Source: Crocinitomicaceae bacterium (GTDB taxonomy: Bacteria > Bacteroidota > Bacteroidia > Flavobacteriales_D > Crocinitomicaceae). From it: a DNA stretch of 64,000 bases. A model generated the notes under the pieces. That model was not told where the DNA came from and did no database searches. It saw only the letters and a list, made by a program, of their open reading frames with translations. The stretch is taken from NCBI GenBank assembly GCA_029251865.1, contig JAQXCN010000025.1, forward strand, positions 1 through 64,000, in the 5' to 3' direction. Each line of letters starts with the position of its first letter. The first letter of the stretch is position 1. Position numbers and translations under genes: made by a program. Shown one piece after another: positions 18,590 through 44,002 of this stretch.

Positions 18590-18661
18590 GGCCCGTTCGT
18601 CTAGTGGTTAGGACGCCAGGTTTTCATCCTGGTAACAGGGGTTCGATTCCCCTACGGGCTA
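18590..18661 (+). tRNA. tRNA-Glu (anticodon TTC), first copy
   Basis: A full cloverleaf of 72 nt: acceptor GGCCCGT pairs with ACGGGCT, the anticodon stem CCAGG/CCTGG encloses loop TTTTCAT with anticodon TTC, and the T arm is AGGGG/CCCCT around TTCGATT. The discriminator base is A and the CCA tail is not encoded, so the CCA-adding enzyme (24326-25750) is needed. A second copy follows after 8 bases. Confidence 0.96.
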
Positions 18662-18669
18662 CTTTTATT

Positions 18670-18741
18670 GGCCCATTCGTCTAGTGGTTAGGACGCCAGG
18701 TTTTCATCCTGGTAACAGGAGTTCGATTCTCCTATGGGCTA
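18670..18741 (+). tRNA. tRNA-Glu (anticodon TTC), second tandem copy
   Basis: Identical to the first copy except at four positions, which form two compensatory pairs: acceptor pair 6-67 changes from G-C to A-T (18675/18735), and T-stem pair 52-62 changes from G-C to A-T (18720/18730). The anticodon and loops are unchanged, so both decode GAA/GAG. CCA is not encoded. rpsT starts 30 bases downstream, probably on the same transcript. Confidence 0.96.
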
Positions 18742-18771
18742 CAGTATTAATAATGAAACTAAATAAAGAAG

Positions 18772-31020: not shown

Positions 31021-32130
31021 TTAATTGAATATTTTTTCTAGAGTTGTGTCTAACGCCGTACCTCTAAGATTTGTCTTGATAACTTTTCCTTCTCTGTCAA
31101 TTAAGACAGTAAAGGGAACACTACCTACCTGATATAGTCTGGAAACTTTACTTTGCCAACCTCCTAAATCACTGACATGATTCGGCCAGATGAGTTGATC
31201 ATCTTTAATTGCCTTTTTCCATTTTTCAAGATCCTTATCCAAAGAAACGCTCATGATCGTAAAACCTTTGTCTTTATATTTGTTATAGGTCCTAACAACA
31301 TTTGGGTTTTCACGTCTACATGGCCCGCACCATGAAGCCCAAAAGTCAATAAGTACAACTTTTCCTCTTAAGTCAGAGAGCGTAATACTGTTTTTCCGGT
31401 CGACCATGAACTCTGTAAAATCGGGAGCCTCTTTTCCTATGCCTAGTGGTTTATTTTGTTCTTTTTCGGCTTTTATTTTTTGGTAGTTCTGAACATATTT
31501 CTGTACCGTTAAGCTTTGCGGAAAGGACTTATTCAATTGATTAATTACACTCTCGTATGATTTAGGGTCTTGTTCATAGTTTATTGCACTCAGACCCATT
31601 ACGATCGCTGCTGAATTTTGATTGCTTCCTAAAAATATTTTGAGATCGTTTTGGAAAGAAAAGTATTCCTTTTGCATATATTCATTGACAACCTTTCGTT
31701 GCTCGGGATTTTCTTTAATGGCCTTGACAGCGGAATCATTTTTTAATTGAAAGCCCTCAACAACCTTCGCAAACGAATTCATTGCTGCAGACTCATCTGA
31801 GTTTAAAATATTACAAAAGGTGTTGAGTTTTTTACCGTCACCGTAAATTTTGATATCCGCGTGGTTTCTGCAAACCAAATGCACAGTAAATTTCCCAAGG
31901 CGCAACAAATAATAATCCTCTCGGGGTAAAACGATGTTTTTACTGAATTTCCCATCTTTATCCATAACAATAGAATCAAAATCTTTGACTTGGTTATTGT
32001 CATACATTTGGGAAATAAATAGCATATTAGTTTCTGCTCCAAATATAGACCCAGACAAAGTAACATTTGCCTCTTGTGCATAACTAGAAAGACAGAGTAC
32101 TAAATTGAGGATGAGTAATTTAAATTTCAT
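31021..32130 (-). CDS. TlpA family thioredoxin-like protein with DUF4369
   Basis: An exported protein of 369 residues: signal peptide (1-18, ending SSYAQ), an N-terminal DUF4369-like domain (~20-220), and a C-terminal AhpC/TSA-thioredoxin-like domain with the redox motif WASWCGPC. It should reduce or exchange disulfides in the periplasm. It is the second of two tandem paralogues; the other (32134-33237) is a lipoprotein. It abuts lpxH with no gap and follows its paralogue by 3 bases. Confidence 0.9.
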   Translation of the reverse strand: MKFKLLILNLVLCLSSYAQEANVTLSGSIFGAETNMLFISQMYDNNQVKDFDSIVMDKDGKFSKNIVLPREDYYLLRLGKFTVHLVCRNHADIKIYGDGKKLNTFCNILNSDESAAMNSFAKVVEGFQLKNDSAVKAIKENPEQRKVVNEYMQKEYFSFQNDLKIFLGSNQNSAAIVMGLSAINYEQDPKSYESVINQLNKSFPQSLTVQKYVQNYQKIKAEKEQNKPLGIGKEAPDFTEFMVDRKNSITLSDLRGKVVLIDFWASWCGPCRRENPNVVRTYNKYKDKGFTIMSVSLDKDLEKWKKAIKDDQLIWPNHVSDLGGWQSKVSRLYQVGSVPFTVLIDREGKVIKTNLRGTALDTTLEKIFN

Positions 32131-32133
32131 TCG

Positions 32134-33237
32134 TTAATATTTAAAAATTTCTAAAAGCCGTTTCTCTAGGGAAGGACCCCGAAGATTCATACCAATAATG
32201 CGTCCTTCAGGATTAACTAATACTGTAAAAGGTATTCCTTCTATTTTATACAATGGCACAACTGCAGAGTTCCAACCTCTTAAATCACTTACATGATAAG
32301 GCCACTCCAATCCATCTTTCTCAATGGCTGCCTTCCATTTTGTCATGTCTTCATCAAGAGAAACAGACATTATAGTAAAGTTCTTTTTTTTGTACTTTTT
32401 GTATAAACGAACCACATTTGGGTTTTCCTTTCTACAAGGACCGCACCAAGATGCCCAGAAATCAATCAGTACGAATTTACCTCGTAAATCTGAAAGACTT
32501 ATTACATTACCATCCACAGTTGAGGATTGAAAGTCAGGAGCCTCATAAAATCCGTTGTTCAGCATGTAGGTTTGCATTAATTCAAATTGCCTCACAAAGT
32601 TCATAGCAACTTCAGATTCAGGGTCACGACTGTAAAAAGCGGCGGCAACGTTACCGAAAATTTGAATTCTTTCTTCATTCCAGTCTTCGGGCGACTTCAT
32701 TATATGATTTGAAAGCACCAGATTGAAAGCACTTGATGGATTCGACTTCATTGTCTTTGCTGCAAATTCCGAAAGTGTATTTGGATCTTGAGATGCGCTT
32801 AATTTTTGATAATTTTCTAAATCATTTGCCCATTTAACGCCATCTACGATAATTGAATGCCCAATTGAATCTTTATTCGCTAGGATAGAAATGGAATCGT
32901 TCGGAGCGAGTGTCAAAGGAATAGAGTCAGTAGAGGAGCCCTTTATTTTAAGTAAATAGTAGCCAAGCCCTGGGATATTTGCATTTATGTTAAATTGACC
33001 CTCTTTATCTGATTTCGTTGAGGCCAAGACTATATTCTGTCCGCGTGACTTGAGTAACGGTACCTCAATACTGATTTCCATATTTTCACCTTCAATTATG
33101 CGTCCGGAAATAGAGGTATTCGGTTGTGAAGAATTATTTGTTTGGGCTTCAAATGACGGCTCATCGTATTCTTCGCTACAAGATGTATTGAGTAATAATG
33201 CAATGAGAAAGTAGCAGTATGTTCGTTTAAGCGTCAT
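32134..33237 (-). CDS. TlpA family thioredoxin-like lipoprotein with DUF4369
   Basis: A 367-residue paralogue of the next gene. The N-terminus has a lipoprotein signal (LLNTSC, Cys20), then a DUF4369-like domain and a thioredoxin-like domain with WASWCGPCRKENPNV. The active site and following block are nearly the same as in the adjacent protein, pointing to a local duplication, with one copy lipid-anchored and the other cleaved. It overlaps gatB by 11 bases, so it is in the same train. Confidence 0.9.
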   Translation of the reverse strand: MTLKRTYCYFLIALLLNTSCSEEYDEPSFEAQTNNSSQPNTSISGRIIEGENMEISIEVPLLKSRGQNIVLASTKSDKEGQFNINANIPGLGYYLLKIKGSSTDSIPLTLAPNDSISILANKDSIGHSIIVDGVKWANDLENYQKLSASQDPNTLSEFAAKTMKSNPSSAFNLVLSNHIMKSPEDWNEERIQIFGNVAAAFYSRDPESEVAMNFVRQFELMQTYMLNNGFYEAPDFQSSTVDGNVISLSDLRGKFVLIDFWASWCGPCRKENPNVVRLYKKYKKKNFTIMSVSLDEDMTKWKAAIEKDGLEWPYHVSDLRGWNSAVVPLYKIEGIPFTVLVNPEGRIIGMNLRGPSLEKRLLEIFKY

Positions 33238-34684
33238 TTAGTTTTTGTCTTAAAAGTGCATTTGCAATTTTTGGGTCCGCTTTTCCTCTAGAGATCCTCA
33301 TGAGTTTCCCCATTAGAAAACCTATTAATTGTTGTTCACCATTTTTAAACCTTACAGCTTCTGATGGATTTTCTGAAATCACCTTTTCAATAAACTCATT
33401 CAAATCACTTTCATCAGATACTTGTATGAGATTCATGCGCTCTGCAATTTTAGCCGAGGCTTCGTTCGTAGAAAGCATCTCAGGAAATATTTTTTGCGAA
33501 GCGATCGTACTTGATACTTTCCCTTGGTCAATAAGTGCAATTAGTTCTGCTAAAGCTTCAGGTTTAATAGGAAGGGATTCAATAGATATTCCTTTCTCGT
33601 TAAGATAGGATTTCACATCGCCCATAATCCAATTGGCCGCAGATTTGTAATTTGTGGTTAAAGAAATTAAATCCTCAAAATAAAGTGCAATTGCCTTAGT
33701 TTCTGTAATATTTTGAGCATCATAATCCGATAGTTTGAGGTCCTTTGTGTATTTGTTATAAAGATCATCGGGAAGAGGAGGCATTTCCGCTTTAACAGCG
33801 TTAATTTGATTTTCATCAACAAAAAGTGGTTGTAAATCGGGTTCTGGAAAATACCTATAATCATTGGCGGCCTCTTTTGATCGCATTGACAACGTGCTGC
33901 CATTCAATGCATCAAACCCTCGTGTTTCTTGAGAGAGCGTGCCTCCGGATTCAAGGACTTCTATCTGTCTTGATATTTCAAACTCGATGGCCTTTTGAAC
34001 ATTCCTTATGGAGTTCATGTTCTTGACCTCAACTTTAGTTCCTAATTCTTTTTGTCCCTTCAACCTAACCGAAACATTCGCATCGCACCTCATAGACCCT
34101 TCTTCCATATTCCCATCACAGATTTCTAAATAACGAACCAATTTTCGTATTTCTGATAAATATTGGTGCGCCTCCTGAGAATTTCTCATATCAGGTTCGG
34201 TAACAATCTCCAATAGTGGCGTACCAGCTCTATTTAAATCAACAAGGGTATCATAAACATCAACATCATGGATGCTTTTACCCGCATCTTCTTCCATGTG
34301 TATTCTCGTTATACCTATTCGTGTTGGTTCTCCCTCTTTTGATTTGAGGTTGATAAAACCATCAGTACAAATAGGTGTTTTATCTTGGGTGATTTGATAA
34401 CCTTTGGGTAGGTCAGGGTAGAAGTAGTTTTTTCTTGCAAAATATTGGTGATTTTCAATTTTACAATTTAGCGCGATCCCGAGTTTAATCGCGTACTCAA
34501 TAGACTTTTTATTCATCACAGGGAGCGTTCCTGGATGGCCCAAGGTTATCGGGCTGGTATGTGTGTTTGGTGCGGCGCCGTACGCATTAATATCTGATGA
34601 ATAAGCTTTAGTTTTGGTTAGCAGCTGAGCATGAACTTCAAGTCCAATTACCACCTCATACTTATCTCTTTGCTCTTGTGTCAT
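33227..34684 (-). CDS. gatB: Aspartyl/glutamyl-tRNA amidotransferase subunit B
   Basis: GatB is the kinase subunit of GatCAB, which converts Glu-tRNA-Gln (and Asp-tRNA-Asn) to the amide forms. The 485-residue length and motifs fit: GLEVHAQLLTKTKAYS, the GHPGTLPVMN segment, YFYPDLPKGYQITQ, and the C-terminal YqeY-like domain. gatA and gatC are not adjacent. Its stop overlaps the TlpA-like lipoprotein start, and one base separates it from the nucleoside phosphorylase gene upstream. Confidence 0.97.
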   Translation of the reverse strand: MTQEQRDKYEVVIGLEVHAQLLTKTKAYSSDINAYGAAPNTHTSPITLGHPGTLPVMNKKSIEYAIKLGIALNCKIENHQYFARKNYFYPDLPKGYQITQDKTPICTDGFINLKSKEGEPTRIGITRIHMEEDAGKSIHDVDVYDTLVDLNRAGTPLLEIVTEPDMRNSQEAHQYLSEIRKLVRYLEICDGNMEEGSMRCDANVSVRLKGQKELGTKVEVKNMNSIRNVQKAIEFEISRQIEVLESGGTLSQETRGFDALNGSTLSMRSKEAANDYRYFPEPDLQPLFVDENQINAVKAEMPPLPDDLYNKYTKDLKLSDYDAQNITETKAIALYFEDLISLTTNYKSAANWIMGDVKSYLNEKGISIESLPIKPEALAELIALIDQGKVSSTIASQKIFPEMLSTNEASAKIAERMNLIQVSDESDLNEFIEKVISENPSEAVRFKNGEQQLIGFLMGKLMRISRGKADPKIANALLRQKLNDA

Positions 34685-34685
34685 A

Positions 34686-35498
34686 TTAAATACTTGAAAT
34701 CAATTCTTTCATAATCAAGGTCATTTTAGGCTCTTGTTTCGCAGCAACCTCAATTACCTCTTGATGGGTAACTTTTTTAATTTTACCAGGAACACCCAAA
34801 TCTGTTATGATCGAAATAGCGAAGCAAGGTATACCCATATGTCTAGCGACAATAACTTCTGGCACCGTCGACATACCAACAGCATCCGCGCCAATAGCGT
34901 GCACATACTGGTATTCTGCCGGGGTTTCAAGCGTCGGTCCAGTAAGCCCAGCATAAATACCTTGAGATACTTTTATATTGTTTTTTTCTGCAATAATTAA
35001 TGCCTTTGCGATGAGTTCGTGGCTGTATGGCTCACTCATGTCTGGGAATCGAGGCCCGAGTTCATCGTAATTCTTACCAATCAAAGGATTACCTGGAAAT
35101 AAATCTATGTGGTCATTAAGAATCATGATTTCACCAATAACAAAGGATTCATTGACACCACCCGAGGCATTGCTAACGAATAGTTTTTCAATTCCTAAAA
35201 ACTTCATCACGCGAACTGGGAAAGTAACTTCCTGTAAATTATAGCCTTCGTAGTAATGAAATCTTCCTTGCATTGCAACTACAGATTTACCACCTAAATT
35301 TCCAAATATTAGTTTTCCGGAGTGACCTTTCACAGTAGAAATGGGAAAGTAAGGAATGTCCTCGTATGCAATTTCGTGAATGACTTCAATCTCATTAACG
35401 AGACCACCCAATCCGGTTCCAAGAATGATACCTACGGAAGGTTTTAAGTCTGTTCTGCCCTGAATGTAGGCTGCTGCTGCTTTAAATTTCTCTAACAT
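34686..35498 (-). CDS. Purine-nucleoside phosphorylase
   Basis: A 270-residue trimeric-type (PNP/MTAP family) phosphorylase that splits guanosine or inosine to base and ribose 1-phosphate. Motifs: GIILGTGLGGL near residues 24-34, VKGHSGKLIFG, MQGRFHYYEGY, and VGMSTVPEV. The E/N substrate pattern was not fully checked, so preference for guanine/hypoxanthine over methylthioadenosine is likely but not proven. It overlaps the lpxK gene by 17 bases. Confidence 0.93.
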   Translation of the reverse strand: MLEKFKAAAAYIQGRTDLKPSVGIILGTGLGGLVNEIEVIHEIAYEDIPYFPISTVKGHSGKLIFGNLGGKSVVAMQGRFHYYEGYNLQEVTFPVRVMKFLGIEKLFVSNASGGVNESFVIGEIMILNDHIDLFPGNPLIGKNYDELGPRFPDMSEPYSHELIAKALIIAEKNNIKVSQGIYAGLTGPTLETPAEYQYVHAIGADAVGMSTVPEVIVARHMGIPCFAISIITDLGVPGKIKKVTHQEVIEVAAKQEPKMTLIMKELISSI

Positions 35499-36498
35499 GC
35501 TTTTTTATTAAGGATTGAAAATCACTTTCTTCTCGGATATGAATATTCATGGGTTGGTAATACCAAGGGTAATCCCCTTTAGAAATCAAGGCTTTAAATT
35601 TTGAAAGCCTTACCATGTCTTTTTCTGTTGTAAGAATAATCGTTTTCTCAGAATCAAAGGTACCAAATTTTTCATGGATTTTATTAAGATCTGATGCTGT
35701 ATAAACATGATGATCACTAAACGAAATCGTTTCAATTGAGAACTTGTTTTCTAAGTGATTGATGAGGTGGCTTGGATCGGCAATACCTGTAACGAGTAAA
35801 ATATTTCTTACAGTTTTGTTTTGTTTTTCAAAGGGTACCATATTGCCATAGGTAACGCTACTGAAAAAGATTGGTTTTTCAAAGCGCTCAAAGCGTTGTT
35901 TGATTTTACGAATACGCTCATCGCTGATGTCTTGCGGAATCTTAGTTATCATAACGACGTCAGCTCTCTTTGCACTACTAATAGGTTCTCTTAAACGTCC
36001 TACAGGAAGAATATGGTCATCCAAAAACAAGTCATTGTATGGTGTGGTAAGGATCAAGAATGATGGATTCACCTTTCTGTGTTGAAATATATCATCATAA
36101 ATTATAACACTTTCAGGATGTTTATTTCTGATTTTTTCTGTGCCGTTTATTCTATTTTCACATACAAAGACATGAGCATTGGTCTTGAACCTTTGTTTAA
36201 ACATAAGCGGTTCGTCTCCGACCTCAATACTTAAAGCATTTCTTTGAACTTCGATAAAACCTTTTGATACGCGACCGTACCCTCTGCTTAAAAGTGCTGG
36301 TAAATAGTTGTTTTTTAAGAGAAATTCAGCAAGATATATTGATAATGGGCTTTTACCCGTTCCACCCATAGAAAGGTTTCCAACGCCTATACTGTTAGGG
36401 ACCTTTTGAGAAGGTAAAATATGACGATCAAATAAGCGATTTCGGATAAAAATCACAAGGGCATAAGCTCCTGATATTGGAAGTAAGAGGTACCGCAT
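35482..36498 (-). CDS. lpxK: Tetraacyldisaccharide 4'-kinase
   Basis: LpxK adds the 4'-phosphate to the lipid A disaccharide at the inner membrane. The 338-residue protein has an N-terminal hydrophobic anchor, the Walker A GVGNLSMGGTGKSP near residues 42-55, and DDIFQHRKV, the conserved DDxxQHR block. It lies in a long minus-strand train with lpxH. Fifteen bases separate it from the DUF4956 gene upstream. Confidence 0.95.
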   Translation of the reverse strand: MRYLLLPISGAYALVIFIRNRLFDRHILPSQKVPNSIGVGNLSMGGTGKSPLSIYLAEFLLKNNYLPALLSRGYGRVSKGFIEVQRNALSIEVGDEPLMFKQRFKTNAHVFVCENRINGTEKIRNKHPESVIIYDDIFQHRKVNPSFLILTTPYNDLFLDDHILPVGRLREPISSAKRADVVMITKIPQDISDERIRKIKQRFERFEKPIFFSSVTYGNMVPFEKQNKTVRNILLVTGIADPSHLINHLENKFSIETISFSDHHVYTASDLNKIHEKFGTFDSEKTIILTTEKDMVRLSKFKALISKGDYPWYYQPMNIHIREESDFQSLIKKHVREI

Positions 36499-36513: not shown

Positions 36514-37179
36514 TTAATCAGCGTGGTAGTCTGAAAACTCTTGCTCCTCAGCGTAATAAAAGATTCTTACTTGAGCCGTATCATTGAGAAAATCAATTTT
36601 ACCAATTTCAAAACGATTAATGGCAAGGCCAGTTCTTTCCTCAATGTCTTTTTTCATAATAGGTGCTTTGTCAGGTGTAATTAAATCAATTCGCTCGTAA
36701 TTAATTGTTTTTCTCGTTTCATGCTTCATGAGCCACAAGAATTCCAAAATATAGGTGAGGACTACCATGAAAACATTAATCAATGCCATCTCAGCTATAC
36801 TCAGTTGATTGGATGCCAAGGCGTTTACCACACTTAATCCAATAATGAGAAAAAGATACGTCATCTCTTTTATTTCAATAGCATCAGTTCGGTATCTTAT
36901 AATACCAAAAATAGCAAAGAGCCCTAGTCCCATACCAGTGTCTATGTCTAATTTTTTTAGACCAAAACATAAAAAGAAAGTGATCGTACCAATCAAATAA
37001 TAGGTAAATAAATAGTCTTTCCGCTTGGTTTTTGCGTAGTAAAGAAATCTAATGAGAATGGTAATAAATACCACATTTACACAAAGTCTTATAAGTAATA
37101 GGTAAAAGTCTTCATCGAACCATTGAAGGCCAATCATATTAGTTGCTTTGTTTTTTGCTAAAAATAAGTTTACTAGCAT
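36514..37179 (-). CDS. DUF4956 membrane protein
   Basis: A 221-residue protein with four membrane helices in the first ~160 residues and a soluble C-terminal region. The DUF4956 core is GLGLFAIFGIIRYRTD, followed by YLFLIIGLSVVNALAS. The family has no known activity but is repeatedly found next to VTC-domain (polyphosphate-polymerase-like) proteins, as here. A second ATG at 37137 (MIGLQWF) is an equally possible start and would avoid the 7-base overlap with the VTC gene. Confidence 0.88.
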   Translation of the reverse strand: MLVNLFLAKNKATNMIGLQWFDEDFYLLLIRLCVNVVFITILIRFLYYAKTKRKDYLFTYYLIGTITFFLCFGLKKLDIDTGMGLGLFAIFGIIRYRTDAIEIKEMTYLFLIIGLSVVNALASNQLSIAEMALINVFMVVLTYILEFLWLMKHETRKTINYERIDLITPDKAPIMKKDIEERTGLAINRFEIGKIDFLNDTAQVRIFYYAEEQEFSDYHAD

Positions 37180-37928
37180 ATAATTTTATTTATGGATAAG
37201 TTTTTCTTTTTAAATCTATTTTGTTTGAGTTTACTTGCTGGATGAAATTTCATTATTCCGACACAGTATTTACTCACCCTTAATGGGCGAATCATTCTTT
37301 TTTTCATTTTCATGAAAAACGCACTTGAACGGTCTATATTTCCCTGTTTGAGCTCACAAATCACCAAATTAGTTAAAGATTTAGTTTCTGCTGCATCTTG
37401 AAATTCAATATTTAGGTCAAAGGTAAGCCTTTCAGCTTTTGTTTTGTGCACAAGCGTAATTCGACTAAAACTGTTCGAAATTGTTGAATTTAATCCCTTT
37501 GCACCCTCATAAGCGTTTTCCAAAAAAGAAAGTTCTTCCTGACTGAAATTTGTTCCCCATTGCTCTGTTTTCAATCTCGTCTTTTCTGTCCGACCTTTTT
37601 TCTTACGTTTAACTTCAAGAAAGGATAGGTTGTTGTTCACATATTTTCGAATTCTGATTTTTAATCGATCATTCTTCTTTTTATGGTGATCTGAGAAGAA
37701 TTCAAAGTTTGGGGAATCGAAATATAGGCTTTCGTACTTTGAGTATTTTAAACCACTTACTTCTAATATTCTGTAATGTTCTGTCAGTTCGGGAAGCATT
37801 TCAGTGAAAACATTCTCGTGAATGGCATATTTTGTATCGATACGATTCATTAAAGCAACGGCATCCATTTCTGCGAGATTAACCGCATCAAAAGGGTCCG
37901 TGAGTAATTTGAGTCGTTCTTGTAACAT
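37173..37928 (-). CDS. VTC-domain (polyphosphate polymerase-like) protein
   Basis: A 251-residue soluble protein of the VTC/CYTH tunnel-fold group. Basic tunnel residues are visible: the RIDTKY start of the domain, RLKIRIRKY, and FLEVKRKKKGRTEKTR. In yeast Vtc4 this fold makes polyphosphate from ATP; in bacteria the activity of such proteins is mostly untested. Membrane localisation may come from its partner DUF4956 protein, encoded immediately downstream with a 7-base overlap. A -7 element lies 4 bases before its ATG, so it heads the long gene train down to 28126. Confidence 0.88.
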   Translation of the reverse strand: MLQERLKLLTDPFDAVNLAEMDAVALMNRIDTKYAIHENVFTEMLPELTEHYRILEVSGLKYSKYESLYFDSPNFEFFSDHHKKKNDRLKIRIRKYVNNNLSFLEVKRKKKGRTEKTRLKTEQWGTNFSQEELSFLENAYEGAKGLNSTISNSFSRITLVHKTKAERLTFDLNIEFQDAAETKSLTNLVICELKQGNIDRSSAFFMKMKKRMIRPLRVSKYCVGIMKFHPASKLKQNRFKKKNLSINKIIC

Positions 37929-37932
37929 CTGT

Positions 37933-37940
37933 CAAATGTA
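37933..37940 (-). promoter_or_regulatory. -7 promoter element close to the VTC start
   Basis: The minus strand reads TACATTTG, an exact match, with four bases to the ATG at 37928. A TTG lies 16 bases upstream (37959-37957), slightly short of the usual spacing. It would drive the whole VTC-to-HsdR_N-like train. Confidence 0.55.
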
Positions 37941-38010
37941 GTTCAATAATTGCTAGCAATAAAATCTTTTCCTTTAGACTCTCGCAAAGAAGTAGATCAA
38001 GAGTTTTTTT

Positions 38011-38475
38011 TTAAAATCGAAGCCCGATTTTTAAGTTTCCGTAGACGTAGAATCTTGTTGTTTCTGATGTGTTACCCCCGAAGCTACTTGATACTAATTT
38101 ACCGTTTGCGGGCCCTAAATCAAAAGCAATTAACCAATTGGTTCTGCTGAAAAAGGTAAAGCCCAGTGGAACATAGGCCACAGTGCCTCCTCCAACATCA
38201 ACAAGTACAAAAGAACTCAGTTTTATTCCGCTGTAGAAACAAACTTTTGAAGATCTTATGCGCCCGGGATAAATTGTAAACCCAGCCCCAATACCAATAA
38301 GACCAAAGCCTAATTCTAAGCTTAACTTATCATTTACTAGACGCTCATAACTAAGGCCTATTGCGGACGACGCGCCTAAAAGATTTCCTGAAATGATGTT
38401 TTGTTTTTCTTGCGCTTTTAGGTTTAGCGATAGAAGAAGGAATACAATCAGAATATTCGGATACCAATTAGTCAT
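38011..38475 (-). CDS. Small exported beta-barrel-like hypothetical protein
   Basis: A 154-residue protein with a signal peptide (MTNWYPNILIVFLLLSLNLKA) followed by alternating strands rich in Gly, Phe and Tyr (IGLSYERLVNDKLSLELGFG, ...VYGNLKIGLRF), ending in a terminal Phe. This looks like a small outer-membrane barrel. No family is recognised. It begins directly at the stop of the 71-aa membrane protein gene and is followed after 82 bases by the VTC gene. Confidence 0.7.
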   Translation of the reverse strand: MTNWYPNILIVFLLLSLNLKAQEKQNIISGNLLGASSAIGLSYERLVNDKLSLELGFGLIGIGAGFTIYPGRIRSSKVCFYSGIKLSSFVLVDVGGGTVAYVPLGFTFFSRTNWLIAFDLGPANGKLVSSSFGGNTSETTRFYVYGNLKIGLRF

Positions 38476-38691
38476 TTATTCCTCAAGTTCTTCATCATGT
38501 TCTGTAATCTGATCAGAAGTCCCATATTTTTTTTCTGAATACTGCCCGAGTTCATAACATAAAATTGCTGCTATGGTATAAAATATTGGGGTGGATGAAG
38601 ACAAGTTTAGACTATTAAAGATTTCTGATATCGACATAATAACGATACCAATTCCAATGATTACTGTAATATTGAATATTTTCTTTTTCAT
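38476..38691 (-). CDS. Small membrane protein, two helices
   Basis: From the ATG at 38691 the protein has 71 residues, with two hydrophobic helices (about residues 6-24 and 34-50) and a short acidic C-terminal tail (ITEHDEELEE). It could be an inner-membrane partner or an adaptor; no family is recognised. The downstream barrel-like gene begins at its stop, so the two are co-transcribed. Confidence 0.65.
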   Translation of the reverse strand: MKKKIFNITVIIGIGIVIMSISEIFNSLNLSSSTPIFYTIAAILCYELGQYSEKKYGTSDQITEHDEELEE

Positions 38692-38914: not shown

Positions 38915-39688
38915 ATGAAAAAAACACTTTTCCTCGTTCTTCTTGTTGTTTTTATGACTGCTTGTTCAACGTATAATTACAACTCGACGTATAATTCCTC
39001 CGAGATTTTATTCAATCCAGATGAATTCGCTCAAAATCCCGAATTATGGGATTTTTATGTTCACGATCGAAAAGGAAAATCATATAAGGGAAGATCTTCT
39101 TCAATGAATGATGGTGCATTCAGTACAGTTTTAGTTGAACGATATGTGGAGCCAATTCCAGTTGTGCTTGAATCAGGTCAAGAGTATCGAAAAAATGAGG
39201 TGCACGTTTTTGTTCAAGACACAGTTATTGAGGAGCGCGTGCGAAGTCATTTCAAACCTTCTGACATCATTGAGGTGGTTTCTTTTGGTACACCCTCTTC
39301 CGTTAAAGAGCACAAAAAATCAAACACAAATACCGCTACAAGAAGTGTATTAGGCACTGTCGGTATTATTGTTGGTGGTGTTTTAGGGGGGATTCTGTTG
39401 ATTAGTTTAATTGTTGCGGCAATCGTTGAATCCTTTCTCGGTAGTTTGGGTTGTTATATTGCAACTATGGCCTATGGCTCTTATGATGCACCAGAGGTTA
39501 GGGTATTAAGAAGGTTTCGAGATGAAAAATTGAAAAGAACATTTATAGGACGCGTTTTTATTAGTAATTATTATGCTTTTTCCCCTTTACTCGTCCGGTT
39601 TGTGAAGCGAACAGGTTTCGCTGAAGGCTTTATTAGAGTTAAACTAGATGCTTTTGTGGATCGATTGAAAACAAAAAATAATTGGTAA
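38915..39688 (+). CDS. Lipoprotein with a C-terminal CFI-box domain
   Basis: A 257-residue protein in three parts. First, a lipoprotein signal (MTAC, Cys17). Second, a soluble region with a beta-rich appearance (about 25-140). Third, a strongly hydrophobic Gly/Ile/Val segment at ~144-176, followed by CYIATMAYGSYDAPEV (180-195), then VLRRFRDEKLK, and a basic tail. This last part matches the domain NCBI names CFI-box-CTERM, whose role (a possible processing or anchoring signal) is unknown. Having both a lipoprotein N-terminus and this C-terminal unit is unusual. It is monogenic, with a gap of 73 bases to the next gene. Confidence 0.82.
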   Translation: MKKTLFLVLLVVFMTACSTYNYNSTYNSSEILFNPDEFAQNPELWDFYVHDRKGKSYKGRSSSMNDGAFSTVLVERYVEPIPVVLESGQEYRKNEVHVFVQDTVIEERVRSHFKPSDIIEVVSFGTPSSVKEHKKSNTNTATRSVLGTVGIIVGGVLGGILLISLIVAAIVESFLGSLGCYIATMAYGSYDAPEVRVLRRFRDEKLKRTFIGRVFISNYYAFSPLLVRFVKRTGFAEGFIRVKLDAFVDRLKTKNNW

Positions 39689-39761
39689 AATATCCTTTTT
39701 AATATTGAAATCAGTTTTACATTATTGTGTAATTCAAATTTTTTAATGTCCTTTATAAAAG

Positions 39762-40745
39762 ATGTCTTCCACCCAAGCTGTATTTAAAAGTTTTATACAT
39801 ACATCCCTTTTATGTTTATTCATACTTGTTTTAAGTTCTTGCGGGACTGATCACGATATTGATAGTGCTGTGCTCAAAATGAATTCAGATAGTATTCTTT
39901 TAATGAATATAAGTCTAGGCTTTATTATGTTGGGAGTTGCGCTCAAGCTTGAAGTTAAAGATTTTATCCTGGTTTTTTCTGCGCCTAAATCTGTTTTGGT
40001 TGGCTTTGTTTCGCAATTTTTCGCACTTCCTTTTTTAACCTTCCTGTTTGTTCTGATCTTAAAACCCATGCCCAGTGTCGCTATGGGGATGATGATTGTT
40101 GCAGCTTGTCCCGGAGGCAATATTTCTAATTTCATGACTTCAATTGCCAATGGAAATACAGCTTTGTCTGTTTGCATGACCGCGATTGCAAGTGTTGTAG
40201 CTGTTTTTATGACACCGTTTAATATATCATTCTGGGGAGGTATGTATGCGCCAACAGCTTCTATCTTATCTAATGTCAGTATTGATTTTATTGAAATGTT
40301 GAAGATCGTTGGAATGATTCTTTTGATTCCCCTGGTCATTGGAATGTGCCTTCGTGCTTTTAAACCGAAGATGGCAGATTTTTTATTGCCAATTACCCAT
40401 TATGGCTCAATGCTTATTTTTGGATCCATTGTCGTATTTGCATTTAAAGCAAATACGGAACTATTTCTGAAATACATTCATCTTATAATTTTTATTGTTT
40501 TAGCCCATAATGCGATTGGGATTTTAACGGGTTATTCCTTAGCACGCTTATTCAAATTGCCGGGGACTGATCAAAAAACACTGGCAATAGAAACAGGTAT
40601 TCAAAATTCCGGACTTGGACTTGGGTTGATTTTTGCCTTTTTTGATGGAATGGGAGGAATGGCTATTGTCGCTGGTTGGTGGGGTATTTGGCACATTATT
40701 TCAGGGTTGAGCATCGCCTATTTTTTCAAAAACAAAAACCTTTAG
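39762..40745 (+). CDS. Bile acid:sodium symporter (BASS) family protein
   Basis: A 327-residue membrane protein with about nine to ten helices. Family features are AACPGGNISNFMTSIANGNTALSVCMTAI and later IETGIQNSGLGLGLI, the regions that form the sodium sites. BASS members carry organic acids such as bile acids, pyruvate or glutamate-like anions; the substrate here is unknown. Oddly, the N-terminus contains LVLSSC (Cys27), which looks like a lipobox; an ATG at 39879 would remove it and start at the first transporter helix. Both starts are possible. Confidence 0.88.
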   Translation: MSSTQAVFKSFIHTSLLCLFILVLSSCGTDHDIDSAVLKMNSDSILLMNISLGFIMLGVALKLEVKDFILVFSAPKSVLVGFVSQFFALPFLTFLFVLILKPMPSVAMGMMIVAACPGGNISNFMTSIANGNTALSVCMTAIASVVAVFMTPFNISFWGGMYAPTASILSNVSIDFIEMLKIVGMILLIPLVIGMCLRAFKPKMADFLLPITHYGSMLIFGSIVVFAFKANTELFLKYIHLIIFIVLAHNAIGILTGYSLARLFKLPGTDQKTLAIETGIQNSGLGLGLIFAFFDGMGGMAIVAGWWGIWHIISGLSIAYFFKNKNL

Positions 40746-40756
40746 GATTAAATACC

Positions 40757-40987
40757 ATGGAAAAGGGCCCACAATCTAAAATGCTCATTCAGCTTGTAAC
40801 GATGAGGATGCCTTATGGAAAATACAAAGGCACTTTGTTGTGTGATTTGCCTGAGCCCTACCTGTCGTGGTATAACGCCAAAGGTTTTCCTCCTGGTCAA
40901 ATGGGGCAGCTTTTGGCTTCTATTTATGAAATCAAGCTCAATGGACTTGAGTATCTCCTCAAACCTCTCAAGCAAAAACACGGTTAG
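40757..40987 (+). CDS. DUF3820 family protein
   Basis: A 76-residue protein with the DUF3820 pattern: MPYGKYKGTLLCDLPEPYLSWY, then GFPPGQMGQLLASIYEIKLNGLE. The ATG at 40757 starts 11 bases after the BASS gene stop; an upstream in-frame extension overlaps the transporter gene and is rejected. The family is common in Proteobacteria and Bacteroidota; its role is not established. It probably shares the BASS transcript. Confidence 0.88.
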   Translation: MEKGPQSKMLIQLVTMRMPYGKYKGTLLCDLPEPYLSWYNAKGFPPGQMGQLLASIYEIKLNGLEYLLKPLKQKHG

Positions 40988-41152
40988 TTAAGGGTGTCTT
41001 TCAATGCGTTCTGTTTCTAAAAAGGCAAATATTTATTCATTTATTTTGTATAGATTTAACGTAAGCTAAAATGATTAAAATCAAAATATGACTCCGGCAG
41101 AAACCTTAGTTTTCATCTCATAAATTGATTTTAAATTAGAAACATAATCACC

Positions 41153-44002
41153 ATGAAATCATTTTATTTGAGCATCCTATGCTTCCATATAATTTTATTC
41201 ACCCCTGCTATTTTTCAAGCTCAGAACTTTATTGTAAATACTTTTGATGATACGCCTGATATTAATTTATCCGATGGTATTTGCGCCGATGCTAGTGGTG
41301 AATGTTCTTTAAGAGCTGCTGTTATGGAGTCAAATGCTCTTTCAGGAAGTCATGAGGTCACACTTCAGGTGGGTGTTTATCTATTATCGAATTCAGGAAT
41401 TAATGAAGATGATGGACAAACTGGTGATTTGGATTTATCTGCTAACATTTCAATTGTTGGGATGGGGCCAGAACAAACGTTTATTAACGGTGACAGTCTT
41501 GATCGAATATTACACATTCAGTCTTCAGGGGTAGTTGCCCTTGAAATGTTAAGTCTTGCACAGGGTTATGCTTTGTCCGGTAATGGAGGCGCTATTCTTA
41601 ATCAAGGAGCGTTGACACTTAATAATATTCATATCGCAAATAGCTCAAGTGAATTGAATCAGGGAGGAACCGGCCAAGGAGGAATGGGAGGCGCAATTCT
41701 TAACCAAGGAATTTTGAATGCTACCAATTCAACATTCTATGAAAATACGGCAAAAGGAGGAAGCGGGATTGACGGATCAAACGGTGGTGGTGGCGGTGGT
41801 AGCACTCCTGGTTTAGGAGGTGCCATTTTTAATGCATCAAATGGTACTATTTCATTAATAAATTGTACACTTTCCACAAATAGAGCTATCGGAGGAAGAT
41901 ATTCTAATGGATCAGCAAATGGTGGTAATTTTAATATGATAGGTAATCCTGGTGCTGGTCTTAATGGGGGGCCTCCAGGAGCGTCAGGAGGCGGGGCTGG
42001 TGGAGATGCCACAGGAGACTTTTCAGGCGGTGGTGGTGGTGGTAGTTCTAGCTCCTTTGGTGGTCTCGGTGGCCTCGGCGGCTACGGCGGTGGTGGTGGT
42101 GGTCGTGGCGCACGTTCAGGAAGTGGCTCTTCTGGGCCAGGCGGACTTGGCGGTTTTGCTGGAGGTCAAGGATCTGGTCCTTGTTGTTCATCGGGCGGAG
42201 GTGGAGGTGCTGGTGGTGGTCTTGGCGGAGCTATCTTTAATAATGGAGGAAGCATTGTAATGACGAATTGCACTGTTGCATTTAATGAGGCTATAGGGGG
42301 TCAAGGTCGTTCTGACAATCCCAACTCAGGATATGCAGCAGGAGGAACGGATGGTGAAGGCTACGGGGGTGGATTATTCAATCGAGTAGGAAATTTTGAG
42401 TTAAACAATACAATTGTTTCACAAAACTCAATTACAAATGAAATAGTCAATGCAGCTCCTCAAGGAGTTATTCAAAATGAAGATTTGTTTGGTGAATTTC
42501 AATCGATTGCGGGACATAATTTAATTTACGAATTAGGTACTGCATCATTTAGTGGTTCAAATCAAGGCTTGATTTTATCAGTTGATCCAACTCTTGGTGA
42601 ACTAAATAATTACGGTGGTCCTACGTATACCCATTCGATTCCATCATGTCCTGTCGGTCCAGCCTCAAATGTCGGTAATGATGCCTATGCACTTCAATAC
42701 GATCAACGTGGTTTCGAAAGGTCAGGTATCTCAGATATTGGTGCATTTGAATCACAATCTACAGCAGTATCGCTTGATGTACTTATTACAAAACCTTGTC
42801 AAGGAGCATCTAATGGTGCAATTGTGCTCATTCCTTCTGGTACGCCCGAATACACTTATGAATGGGACTCAGCAACCGGAGGTCAAACAGATTCCATTGT
42901 GCTAAACCTGAGTGTCGGAACATATTCCGTAATTATTACTGACGGGAATGGATGTCTGAAGGATACTTCGTTTGTTTTGGATGAAGCATTAACACCTCAA
43001 ATAGATGCTTTACCCGAACAAGAATCCTGTGATATATTTACTTTGCCTGAAATAACGGGTACTAATTTGTCGGGAAATGAGGCCTATTATAGTTTATCAG
43101 GTGCACAAGGAGATACTTACCTTGCTGATGCATCCATTACAGAATCCTGCTCAATTTTTGTTTTTGACAGTTTATCTTATTGTATAGATGAGTATGCTCT
43201 TCCTATTATTATTCATGATTCTCCTGAGTTAATTGATTTTTCGGGAGAGGCTACGTATTGTGAAGGAAACGAAATCCAAGAACTTATTTTAAATGTTGAC
43301 GGTATACCTGAATTTACTATCGAATACACCCTTGATGGAATCCTTCAAACTTTAAGTTCTAACAATAGCTCCTTTTCAATTGGTAACGCTCCAGGTTTAT
43401 ATACCCTTTTGCAATTGGAGGATGCATTTTGTGGGAGTAGTATTTCAGCGATCCAAAGTATAGTGATAAATGAGATTCCATCAGCTCCAATATTAGAGGG
43501 TGAAACTGAATATTGTGAATCAGATTTTATTGAAGAACTTCTAGCATTTGGAGGTTCTGGTGAAGTGACTTGGTATGAAGATTCTTTGCTAACAGAAGTA
43601 GTATCTTCGTCAAACAGTTATAGCCCAGAAGGCGATCTGGGTTCCGTTTCATACTATGCAACCTATACCGAGAACAACTGTGAAAGCATTCCTTCTCAAA
43701 TAATATTGACAGTTGCATATTGTGATGTGATTGTTCCCACTGCATTTACACCGAACAATGATAATGTGAATGATTTGTGGAATATCCAAAGACTAGACCT
43801 GGTATTTCCAAAAAACTTGGTTTCCGTTTATAATCGATTGGGTAATAAAGTTTATGAATCTACACAAGGGAACTATGAAATTCGACCATGGGACGGAATT
43901 TATGATGGGAATGAATTACCCGTTGGATCCTATTATTATATTATTGATTACAATGATACTAGCCATAAAAAGATGAACGGAATTGTAAGTATTATTAGAT
44001 AG
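41153..44002 (+). CDS. Large T9SS cargo: CSLREA beta-helix, SprB repeat, type B C-terminal domain
   Basis: A 949-residue secreted protein. After the signal peptide (1-24) comes a CSLREA-type motif (CSLRAAV at 51-57), then a beta-helix-like region with repeats GGAILNQG (145-152), GGAILN (179-184), GGAIFN (222-227) and GGAIFN (358-363). It is interrupted by very Gly-rich loops at ~201-220 and ~265-357. A SprB-like repeat (CQGASNGAIVL ... YTYEW ... VGTYSVIITDGNGC) lies at ~545-612, and Ig-like segments follow. The last ~90 residues (PTAFTPNNDNVND ... NGIVSIIR) are the gliding-motility/T9SS type B C-terminal domain. It is probably a surface adhesin exported by T9SS. Confidence 0.9.
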   Translation: MKSFYLSILCFHIILFTPAIFQAQNFIVNTFDDTPDINLSDGICADASGECSLRAAVMESNALSGSHEVTLQVGVYLLSNSGINEDDGQTGDLDLSANISIVGMGPEQTFINGDSLDRILHIQSSGVVALEMLSLAQGYALSGNGGAILNQGALTLNNIHIANSSSELNQGGTGQGGMGGAILNQGILNATNSTFYENTAKGGSGIDGSNGGGGGGSTPGLGGAIFNASNGTISLINCTLSTNRAIGGRYSNGSANGGNFNMIGNPGAGLNGGPPGASGGGAGGDATGDFSGGGGGGSSSSFGGLGGLGGYGGGGGGRGARSGSGSSGPGGLGGFAGGQGSGPCCSSGGGGGAGGGLGGAIFNNGGSIVMTNCTVAFNEAIGGQGRSDNPNSGYAAGGTDGEGYGGGLFNRVGNFELNNTIVSQNSITNEIVNAAPQGVIQNEDLFGEFQSIAGHNLIYELGTASFSGSNQGLILSVDPTLGELNNYGGPTYTHSIPSCPVGPASNVGNDAYALQYDQRGFERSGISDIGAFESQSTAVSLDVLITKPCQGASNGAIVLIPSGTPEYTYEWDSATGGQTDSIVLNLSVGTYSVIITDGNGCLKDTSFVLDEALTPQIDALPEQESCDIFTLPEITGTNLSGNEAYYSLSGAQGDTYLADASITESCSIFVFDSLSYCIDEYALPIIIHDSPELIDFSGEATYCEGNEIQELILNVDGIPEFTIEYTLDGILQTLSSNNSSFSIGNAPGLYTLLQLEDAFCGSSISAIQSIVINEIPSAPILEGETEYCESDFIEELLAFGGSGEVTWYEDSLLTEVVSSSNSYSPEGDLGSVSYYATYTENNCESIPSQIILTVAYCDVIVPTAFTPNNDNVNDLWNIQRLDLVFPKNLVSVYNRLGNKVYESTQGNYEIRPWDGIYDGNELPVGSYYYIIDYNDTSHKKMNGIVSIIR

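Follow-up and report, generated by a model that had tools for sequence, protein, structure and literature searches.

One of the closest described counterparts of the system considered here is the yeast VTC complex (Vtc1/Vtc3/Vtc4), in which the triphosphate tunnel metalloenzyme (TTM) domain of Vtc4 uses ATP and, according to the available text of PMC9911596, basic residues line the channel entrance. Another is found in Gram-positive bacteria, where genes for CotH, a polyphosphate polymerase and DUF4956 adjoin pel (available parts of PMC7112168 and PMC12345266). This report concerns a VTC-domain gene and a DUF4956 gene that lie side by side on a 64,000-nucleotide stretch of DNA (the window) from a Crocinitomicaceae bacterium of the phylum Bacteroidota (assembly GCA_029251865.1, contig JAQXCN010000025.1, positions 1 to 64,000). 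They are a true, well-conserved and little-studied gene pair of a known kind. With a probability of roughly 0.5, they are best read as a polyphosphate polymerase in the cytoplasm, driven by ATP and attached to a membrane partner that would anchor it, regulate it, or thread its product.

The pair itself has already been published, as has a link to MgtC for a streptococcal relative. In the available text of PMC12345266, the streptococcal protein SIR_1592, encoded beside a polyphosphate polymerase and CotH, consists of an MgtC membrane domain plus an ACT domain; that text does not apply the name DUF4956 to it, and its authors failed to find the three-gene arrangement of CotH, polymerase and SIR_1592-type protein outside the Pel locus. 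A full-text literature search returned no paper holding both ‘DUF4956’ and ‘MgtC’. The window pair is of the same kind as the VTC and DUF4956 genes among the pel accessory genes (PMC7112168 and PMC12345266, as available), but it has no adjacent CotH gene, sits before lpxK, and has no recognised pel genes around it, although pel was not searched for. The points that deserve attention are the absence of a detectable polyphosphate kinase (PPK) from the genome and the relationship of the partner family to MgtC.

The coupling of the two genes, which an earlier note on this DNA had supposed, is strongly supported by counts of co-occurrence and adjacency. The source genome (86 contigs, 2.38 Mb, 100% complete) holds one VTC match and one DUF4956 match. 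Among 150 genomes, this one included, VTC was found in 125 and DUF4956 in 136, and DUF4956 is present in 124 of the 125 VTC-bearing genomes; the sole exception (G144) has its VTC gene 447 nt from a contig end. Gene order was scored in 100 fetched loci and the window, which gave 96 VTC/DUF4956 pairs: VTC comes first in 92, the genes overlap in 73, and any gap is at most 30 bp in 95. Five fetched loci have no VTC open reading frame (ORF) in this table (L042, L066, L075, L080, and L116). For L042, L066 and L080 this was taken as an effect of the simple ORF picker, while L075, which contains unread bases, was rechecked by tblastn and holds the pair. The same arrangement is seen in public sequences, where VTC lies directly 5' of DUF4956 in 79 of the best 80 loci kept from 532 DUF4956 relatives; the closest named relatives among these 80 are mostly Flavobacteriales metagenome-assembled genomes, several of them titled Crocinitomicaceae or Fluviicola. 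The cultured relative Crocinitomix catalasitica ATCC 23190 also carries the pair (locus L188). VTC is split into two frames beside an intact DUF4956 in G051 (L272) and G060 (L280), through decay or assembly error. Of the genus members that seemed to carry DUF4956 without VTC, both of those fetched (G055 and G074) have DUF4956 at a contig end.

The relationship of the window VTC protein to Vtc4 emerges from profiles rather than from the single sequence, which found no convincing match in the Protein Data Bank (PDB; best E 0.1). A profile built from the window protein and 68 of 94 length-filtered fetched VTC ORFs (alignment A1, 69 sequences in total) matched the yeast Vtc4 structure 3g3q at E 2.1e-11. 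The predicted model (pLDDT 93.4, pTM 0.90) has a triphosphate-tunnel fold like that of Vtc4. A Foldseek search of the PDB with this model listed VTC-complex chains in all of its first 13 rows (best 3g3r, E 1.8e-12), followed by other tunnel enzymes, including tunnel phosphatases. Seventeen columns are invariant in all 69 aligned VTCs. Residues R29, K33, R92, R94, Y96, E105, and K107 align with Vtc4 R196, K200, R264, R266, Y268, E279, and K281, and all of the first-half tunnel residues of Vtc4 (R196, K200, R264, R266, and K281) are matched in the window protein. In the second half, S219-K220 aligns with Vtc4 S457-K458 (construct numbering corrected by three), in a stretch that scores -3.7 bits and rests on the SK motif; S219-K220 and E192-x-K194 are both invariant (69/69). 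We take E192 and K194 to stand for Vtc4 E426, a metal-binding residue, and K428, a placement made by motif order only.

These residues matter for enzyme class. In the available text of PMC4641920, K458 is the catalytic lysine of Vtc4, a plant tripolyphosphatase has glutamates in place of the four basic residues that guide polyphosphate out of Vtc4, and a tunnel enzyme with phosphohydrolase activity is recognisable by glutamates around its tunnel. A VTC polymerase should have no acidic patch for binding the second metal, and at the exit positions of the window protein R29 and K194 are basic but position 31 is acidic. The VTC protein is thus predicted to be an ATP-dependent polyphosphate polymerase, a prediction that is supported at the level of enzyme class and does not extend to exact activity. 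Polyphosphate chemistry, as the earlier note had supposed, is the best guess from Vtc4 homology and the predicted fold, whereas nothing speaks for its suggestion of a nucleotide-derived polymer except that Vtc4 is known to use ATP. The likeness to the yeast complex lies in the tunnel fold, the conserved basic residues, and the predicted ATP-fed synthesis at a membrane. Unlike the yeast protein, however, the 251-aa window protein is a tunnel domain alone, with no SPX or fused membrane domain, its membrane partner comes from a separate Pfam family, DUF4956, and D31 stands in place of a threonine.

The partner was modelled with five long predicted membrane helices and a C-terminal beta-alpha-beta-beta domain (pLDDT 77.0, pTM 0.63). 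In an alignment of the window DUF4956 with 67 of 97 fetched DUF4956 ORFs (A2, 68 in total), R95 and R97 are invariant (68/68), and basic R44 and K54 are kept in 60 and 62 sequences, respectively. Loop charges suggest that the C-terminus is cytosolic, and the RYR loop would therefore lie on the same side as VTC. DUF4956 is also the best conserved of seven proteins compared with genome G017, at 96% identity, followed by the phosphorylase (91%), GatB and the 71-aa protein (86% each), VTC (84%), LpxK (70%), and the barrel-like protein (67%). DUF4956 found no PDB match by sequence and no Foldseek match at E 0.001 in the PDB or a viral library, and a second structural comparison gave only middling Z scores (best 6.7), so that fold comparison added nothing.

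Under the preferred reading, VTC and DUF4956 would make up a machine of two components at the inner membrane, comparable in its working to the eukaryotic VTC complex but with a different membrane part. The soluble cytoplasmic VTC protein would take the gamma-phosphate of ATP in a metal-dependent reaction and extend a polyphosphate chain within its basic tunnel. DUF4956 would hold VTC at the membrane through its cytosolic C-terminal domain and invariant RYR loop, and may accept, thread or gate the growing polyanion, towards the periplasm, or else regulate its synthesis. Threading or gating would parallel the basic channel entrance of the yeast complex (PMC9911596, as available). In this genome, all cellular polyphosphate would come from the pair, with Ppx/GppA-type proteins forming the breakdown side. 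The pair, which heads an lpxK-punA-gatB row, probably has a promoter of its own.

At the sensitivity of the search, neither PPK1 nor PPK2 was found in the complete source genome, so the VTC pair is its only visible candidate for polyphosphate synthesis. PPK1 was likewise not found in the other eight genomes of its clade (G017, G026, G032, G051, G058, G069, G071, and G082); three of these (G051, G071 and G082) have a completeness of just 79–84%. The proposed product is the same as that of bacterial PPK1 and PPK2, enzymes whose fold is unrelated to the VTC tunnel fold. Across the 150 genomes, PPK1 was found in 102; 86 have both VTC and PPK1, 39 have VTC only, 16 PPK1 only, and nine neither (Fisher p 0.64). 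Among the 103 genomes counted as at least 90% complete, contamination being ignored, the corresponding numbers are 67, 22, 8, and 6 (p 0.20). The idea that VTC substitutes for PPK1 was rejected on this lack of anticorrelation. VTC is therefore not a simple PPK1 replacement, yet it is the only candidate polyphosphate synthase found in the source genome. If the pair makes polyphosphate, Bacteroidota scored as incapable for lack of ppk could make it; this concerns the 39 of the 150 genomes in which VTC but no PPK1 match was found.

The possible relationship of DUF4956 to the MgtC/SapB family (PF02308) was approached through profiles. The window DUF4956 shows no match to the MgtC model at E 1 or at E 0.1 and does not reach the curated score, while two of the 68 aligned DUF4956 proteins match it at E 0.1 or better (best 0.002). 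A search of 120 genomes with the MgtC model found a DUF4956 protein next to VTC in G113 (E 7.4e-4, below the curated cut-off), and one of 198 genomes across the phylum gave seven weak matches (E 7.6e-7 to 9.2e-4) after the clear ones. The six of these that were fetched, as frames of 223–248 aa (the 422-aa frame of G221 was left out), are all DUF4956 by profile, and four adjoin VTC. Two further alignments were made, A3 from 25 of 35 extracted ORFs and A4 from 15 sequences of a second DUF4956 subtype with an RFRT motif. A4 aligned with the MgtC alignment at a probability of 98.1 (E 1.2e-13, 200 columns), with seven of its 15 sequences (L264–L270) having been picked through the MgtC model. The other comparison used eight sequences of the subtype chosen only as VTC neighbours and gave a probability of 97.5 (E 7e-12, 198 columns); when these were split into two groups of four, the E-values were 1.5e-10 and 3e-7.

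The window protein is connected to MgtC at one remove. Sixty window-type DUF4956 sequences aligned with the eight subtype sequences at a probability of 96.0 (E 4.1e-9, 129 columns), but their direct comparison with MgtC was not significant (E 0.23). Comparison of A2 with A3 gave E 0.007, no better than block-shuffled controls, and that of A2 with A4 (E 1.9e-36) was discounted as circular, eight of the 15 A4 sequences being also in A2. Block-shuffled MgtC scored a probability of 87.9 against A4 (E 3.2e-6, 35 columns) and 47.6 against A2, and short blocks alone can therefore score well; reversed MgtC reached only 1.8 against A4. On these comparisons, the RFRT-type subtype, which aligns with the MgtC/SapB family over about 200 columns, is best placed as a remote MgtC relative, and the window protein, which is not a member of the MgtC family, would be linked to MgtC only through this subtype.

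Several observations weigh against a polyphosphate polymerase with a dedicated membrane partner. Position 31 of VTC is acidic throughout the alignment (D in 59 and E in 10 of 69) where yeast Vtc4 has T198, and the DUF4956 model is of medium confidence. Of the two Ppx/GppA matches in the source genome, one has a stop inside, and proteins of the Ppx/GppA type include (p)ppGpp phosphatases. VTC and PPK1 show no anticorrelation. Lastly, five genomes without a VTC match (G106, G112, G127, G131, and G140) keep DUF4956 on an unbroken stretch, so DUF4956 cannot be only a VTC channel. In G106, G112, G127, and G131 (loci L276, L277, L279, and L281) it adjoins an ABC ATPase gene, joined in three of these loci (L276, L279 and L281) by a neighbouring MlaE-like permease gene (MlaE by Pfam in L276 only). 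This neighbourhood suggests a second context for DUF4956.

The DUF4956 genes without VTC keep alive the main rival, that the pair is a phosphate or nucleotide sensor or a short-chain phosphohydrolase. VTC would then bind or cleave tripolyphosphate or nucleoside triphosphates, and DUF4956, as a remote MgtC relative, would relay the signal to phosphate or ATP metabolism. The full-length though remote relationship of the RFRT subtype to MgtC fits this proposal, as do the description of MgtC as acting on ATP synthase and PhoR (PMC12345266, as available), acidic residue 31, the occurrence of DUF4956 without VTC, and the independence of VTC from PPK1. It is nevertheless unlikely. The invariant basic set of VTC, including K194 two residues past the presumed metal-binding E192, resembles Vtc4 and not the glutamate-rich hydrolase of PMC4641920 (available text). 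VTC chains head the PDB list, even if tunnel phosphatases follow, and window-type DUF4956 lacks a direct MgtC match.

An extended form of the polymerase reading is possible but on balance doubtful. It holds that a PPK-less bacterial lineage makes polyphosphate solely by a Vtc4-type tunnel polymerase coupled to a remotely MgtC-related membrane protein, a bacterial parallel to the eukaryotic VTC synthase-translocase that was assembled independently. If this were true, MgtC relatives would gain a direct role in the handling of phosphate polymers. If the pair makes polyphosphate at all, the uncharacterised DUF4956, unusually well conserved here, would gain a role, and relatives of MgtC-type membrane proteins would be tied to phosphate polymers.

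The Gram-positive loci raise the question of CotH. The earlier note had called CotH kinases absent, and this holds for the eight proteins scanned around the pair; elsewhere in the genome, however, there are six CotH matches. CotH lies beside or near the pair in one of the 51 genus loci (L040, which is not of the lpxK type) and in L089, L094, L097, L104, L106, L109, L132, and L267; in L267, VTC, DUF4956 and a CotH protein stand in a row, with no pel genes recognised, although pel was not searched for. The pair could accordingly supply exported targets with a phosphate polymer or phospho-donor, its clients being CotH-type kinases or surface polymers and, here, the unlinked CotH proteins. The nine loci just listed, the six matches in the source genome, and the position of CotH, polymerase and DUF4956 next to pel in Gram-positives (PMC7112168 and PMC12345266, as available) speak for such clients. 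Nonetheless, we consider them improbable, as CotH is found in 146 of the 150 genomes regardless of VTC, and a search of the lpxK-type genus loci with a CotH profile turned up no CotH ORF. Since CotH is near-universal, its co-occurrence with VTC is uninformative and was discarded as evidence.

The setting of the pair differs among lineages (coordinates for the window are given in the table). Within the genus, the pair heads a row of lpxK, purine nucleoside phosphorylase and gatB, and in 44 of the 51 loci the gene immediately after DUF4956 is lpxK (43 from called ORFs, L075 from tblastn). The pair is flanked, in many loci from other families, by pyruvate dehydrogenase and cytidine deaminase genes on one side and by ispF, porV and a porU-like C25 peptidase gene on the other, names that come from reading of the sequences and are backed by Pfam for PorV and the C25 peptidase only. 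Exported-looking neighbours occur in some other lineages, including CotH with a secretion tail, DUF2490, a small lipoprotein-like protein, a lipoprotein-like inorganic pyrophosphatase, and an HlyD-like protein. The pyrophosphatase gene directly follows DUF4956 in L107, L115, L117, L121, L127, and L128 (Pfam applied to the L117 copy), and PPK1 was not found in the genomes of these six loci. The HlyD-like, membrane-anchored protein is encoded directly before VTC in L265, L267, L268, L269, and L270. The label is a reading of the sequence, with one sub-threshold HlyD_3 match and no Pfam name above cut-off; this neighbour may hint at transport across the envelope.

The lpxK link is thus a lineage trait, because other families place the pair among different genes, whereas an envelope setting recurs. 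This bears on the suggestion that the target of the pair is lipid A or the envelope, reached through lpxK as an operon partner, for example in an extra phosphorylation of lipid A. Such a role would suit the frequency with which lpxK follows DUF4956, in the 44 genus loci and in 19 of the best 80 public loci. It is very unlikely, given that the link is lineage-specific, with PorV and the PorU-like C25 peptidase on one side of the pair in other families, that seven of the 51 genus loci have the pair elsewhere, and that the genes further downstream have unrelated housekeeping roles.

Table. Features around the VTC and DUF4956 genes, in window positions.
Feature	Position	Strand	Remarks
VTC-domain protein, 251 aa	37173..37928	minus	Pfam PF09359, E 1.4e-26; 94 bits against a cut-off of 23, curated score reached
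DUF4956 protein, 221 aa	36514..37179	minus	Pfam PF16316, E 7.5e-54; 182.4 bits against a cut-off of 30.6, curated score reached
Overlap of VTC end and DUF4956 start, 7 bases	37173..37179	minus	
Barrel-like exported ORF, 154 aa	38011..38475	minus	neighbour, excluded from the pair
Two-helix membrane ORF, 71 aa from ATG (73 aa from upstream TTG)	38476..38691	minus	neighbour, excluded from the pair
lpxK (lipid A 4'-kinase)	35482..36498	minus	PF02606, E 2.3e-69; starts 15 bp past DUF4956
Purine nucleoside phosphorylase	34686..35498	minus	overlaps lpxK; conserved downstream neighbour
gatB	33227..34684	minus	identity from sequence reading, without family scan; its protein cluster is conserved downstream
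TACATTTG, promoter-like -7 box TAnnTTTG	37933..37940	minus	in the gap between VTC and the barrel gene, starting 12 nt ahead of the VTC ATG
Weak -33-like TTTA	37960-37963	minus	

The four ORFs of the earlier note are present on the minus strand where it had placed them, with the 7-base overlap of VTC and DUF4956, the 71-aa two-helix and 154-aa barrel-like ORFs upstream of VTC, and a gap of 82 bases between VTC and the barrel gene. Pfam assigns no family to the barrel ORF, which had been described as of unknown family, and gives the 71-aa ORF one sub-threshold match and none above cut-off. The further proposal that all four genes form one envelope module fared less well, judged by the synteny that the note itself had set as its yardstick. 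Homologues of the 71-aa gene were found in four of the 150 genomes (G000, G017, G032, and G071, the last at 34% identity). Matches to the barrel gene occur in 23 genomes, six of them close (G000, G017, G032, G071, G082, and G051; E 1.5e-47 or better). The other 17 are weak (best E 6.7e-15), and their listed places are away from the listed VTC places. The barrel gene stands directly before VTC in all six genomes with a close homologue, which speaks for the earlier note, but both small genes precede VTC in only four of the 150, the barrel gene alone doing so in two more.

The phylogeny of the loci places this arrangement in a narrow frame. In a tree of DUF4956, the phosphorylase and GatB, built from the 47 of 56 offered loci that have all three, one nine-locus clade (support 1.0) comprises the six barrel-bearing loci together with L050, L067 and L075. 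These three have the pair (VTC 76–81% and DUF4956 93–95% identical to the window) and lack both small genes, and they group together inside the clade (0.993); a single loss in that branch is therefore the simplest history. An envelope module including both small genes could draw on the constant place of the barrel gene before VTC and on the span of the six barrel loci across the root of the clade, which implies that the neighbourhood has been kept for some time. With the gene order confined to this one clade, absent from three members that keep the pair, and VTC having a promoter-like box of its own, the module is scarcely credible, and it was rejected on the evidence of distribution, tree and promoter. 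The small genes are most likely clade-specific neighbours.

The promoter evidence comes from the gap of 82 bases, where the earlier note had allowed for a VTC promoter. The gap contains a TAnnTTTG box, a motif that we take to be the consensus of the Bacteroidota -7 promoter box; no convincing -33 box was seen upstream of VTC. The motif stands no more than 100 nt ahead of VTC in 39 of 48 loci (the window and those 47 of the 51 genus loci in which a VTC ORF was called, 48 out of 52), against 2.6 expected under mononucleotide shuffling, and in loci both with and without the small genes. This conserved box suggests that VTC most likely begins its own transcript.

Further observations concern the wider window. 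Between the pair and an ATP-grasp gene (44162), which is the direct divergent neighbour of the pair in many genus relatives, positions 38915-44002 hold genes for a CFI-box-CTERM lipoprotein, an SBF/BASS-type transporter and a 949-aa glycine-rich protein. Other loci of the window's clade share some portions of the insertion. Two tandem tRNA-Glu (TTC) genes lie 7 bp apart at 18590-18742. Two tandem genes of one cluster occupy 31021-33237, the second of which (32134-33237) reads as thioredoxin-like, and a similar tandem doublet follows gatB in many genus loci.

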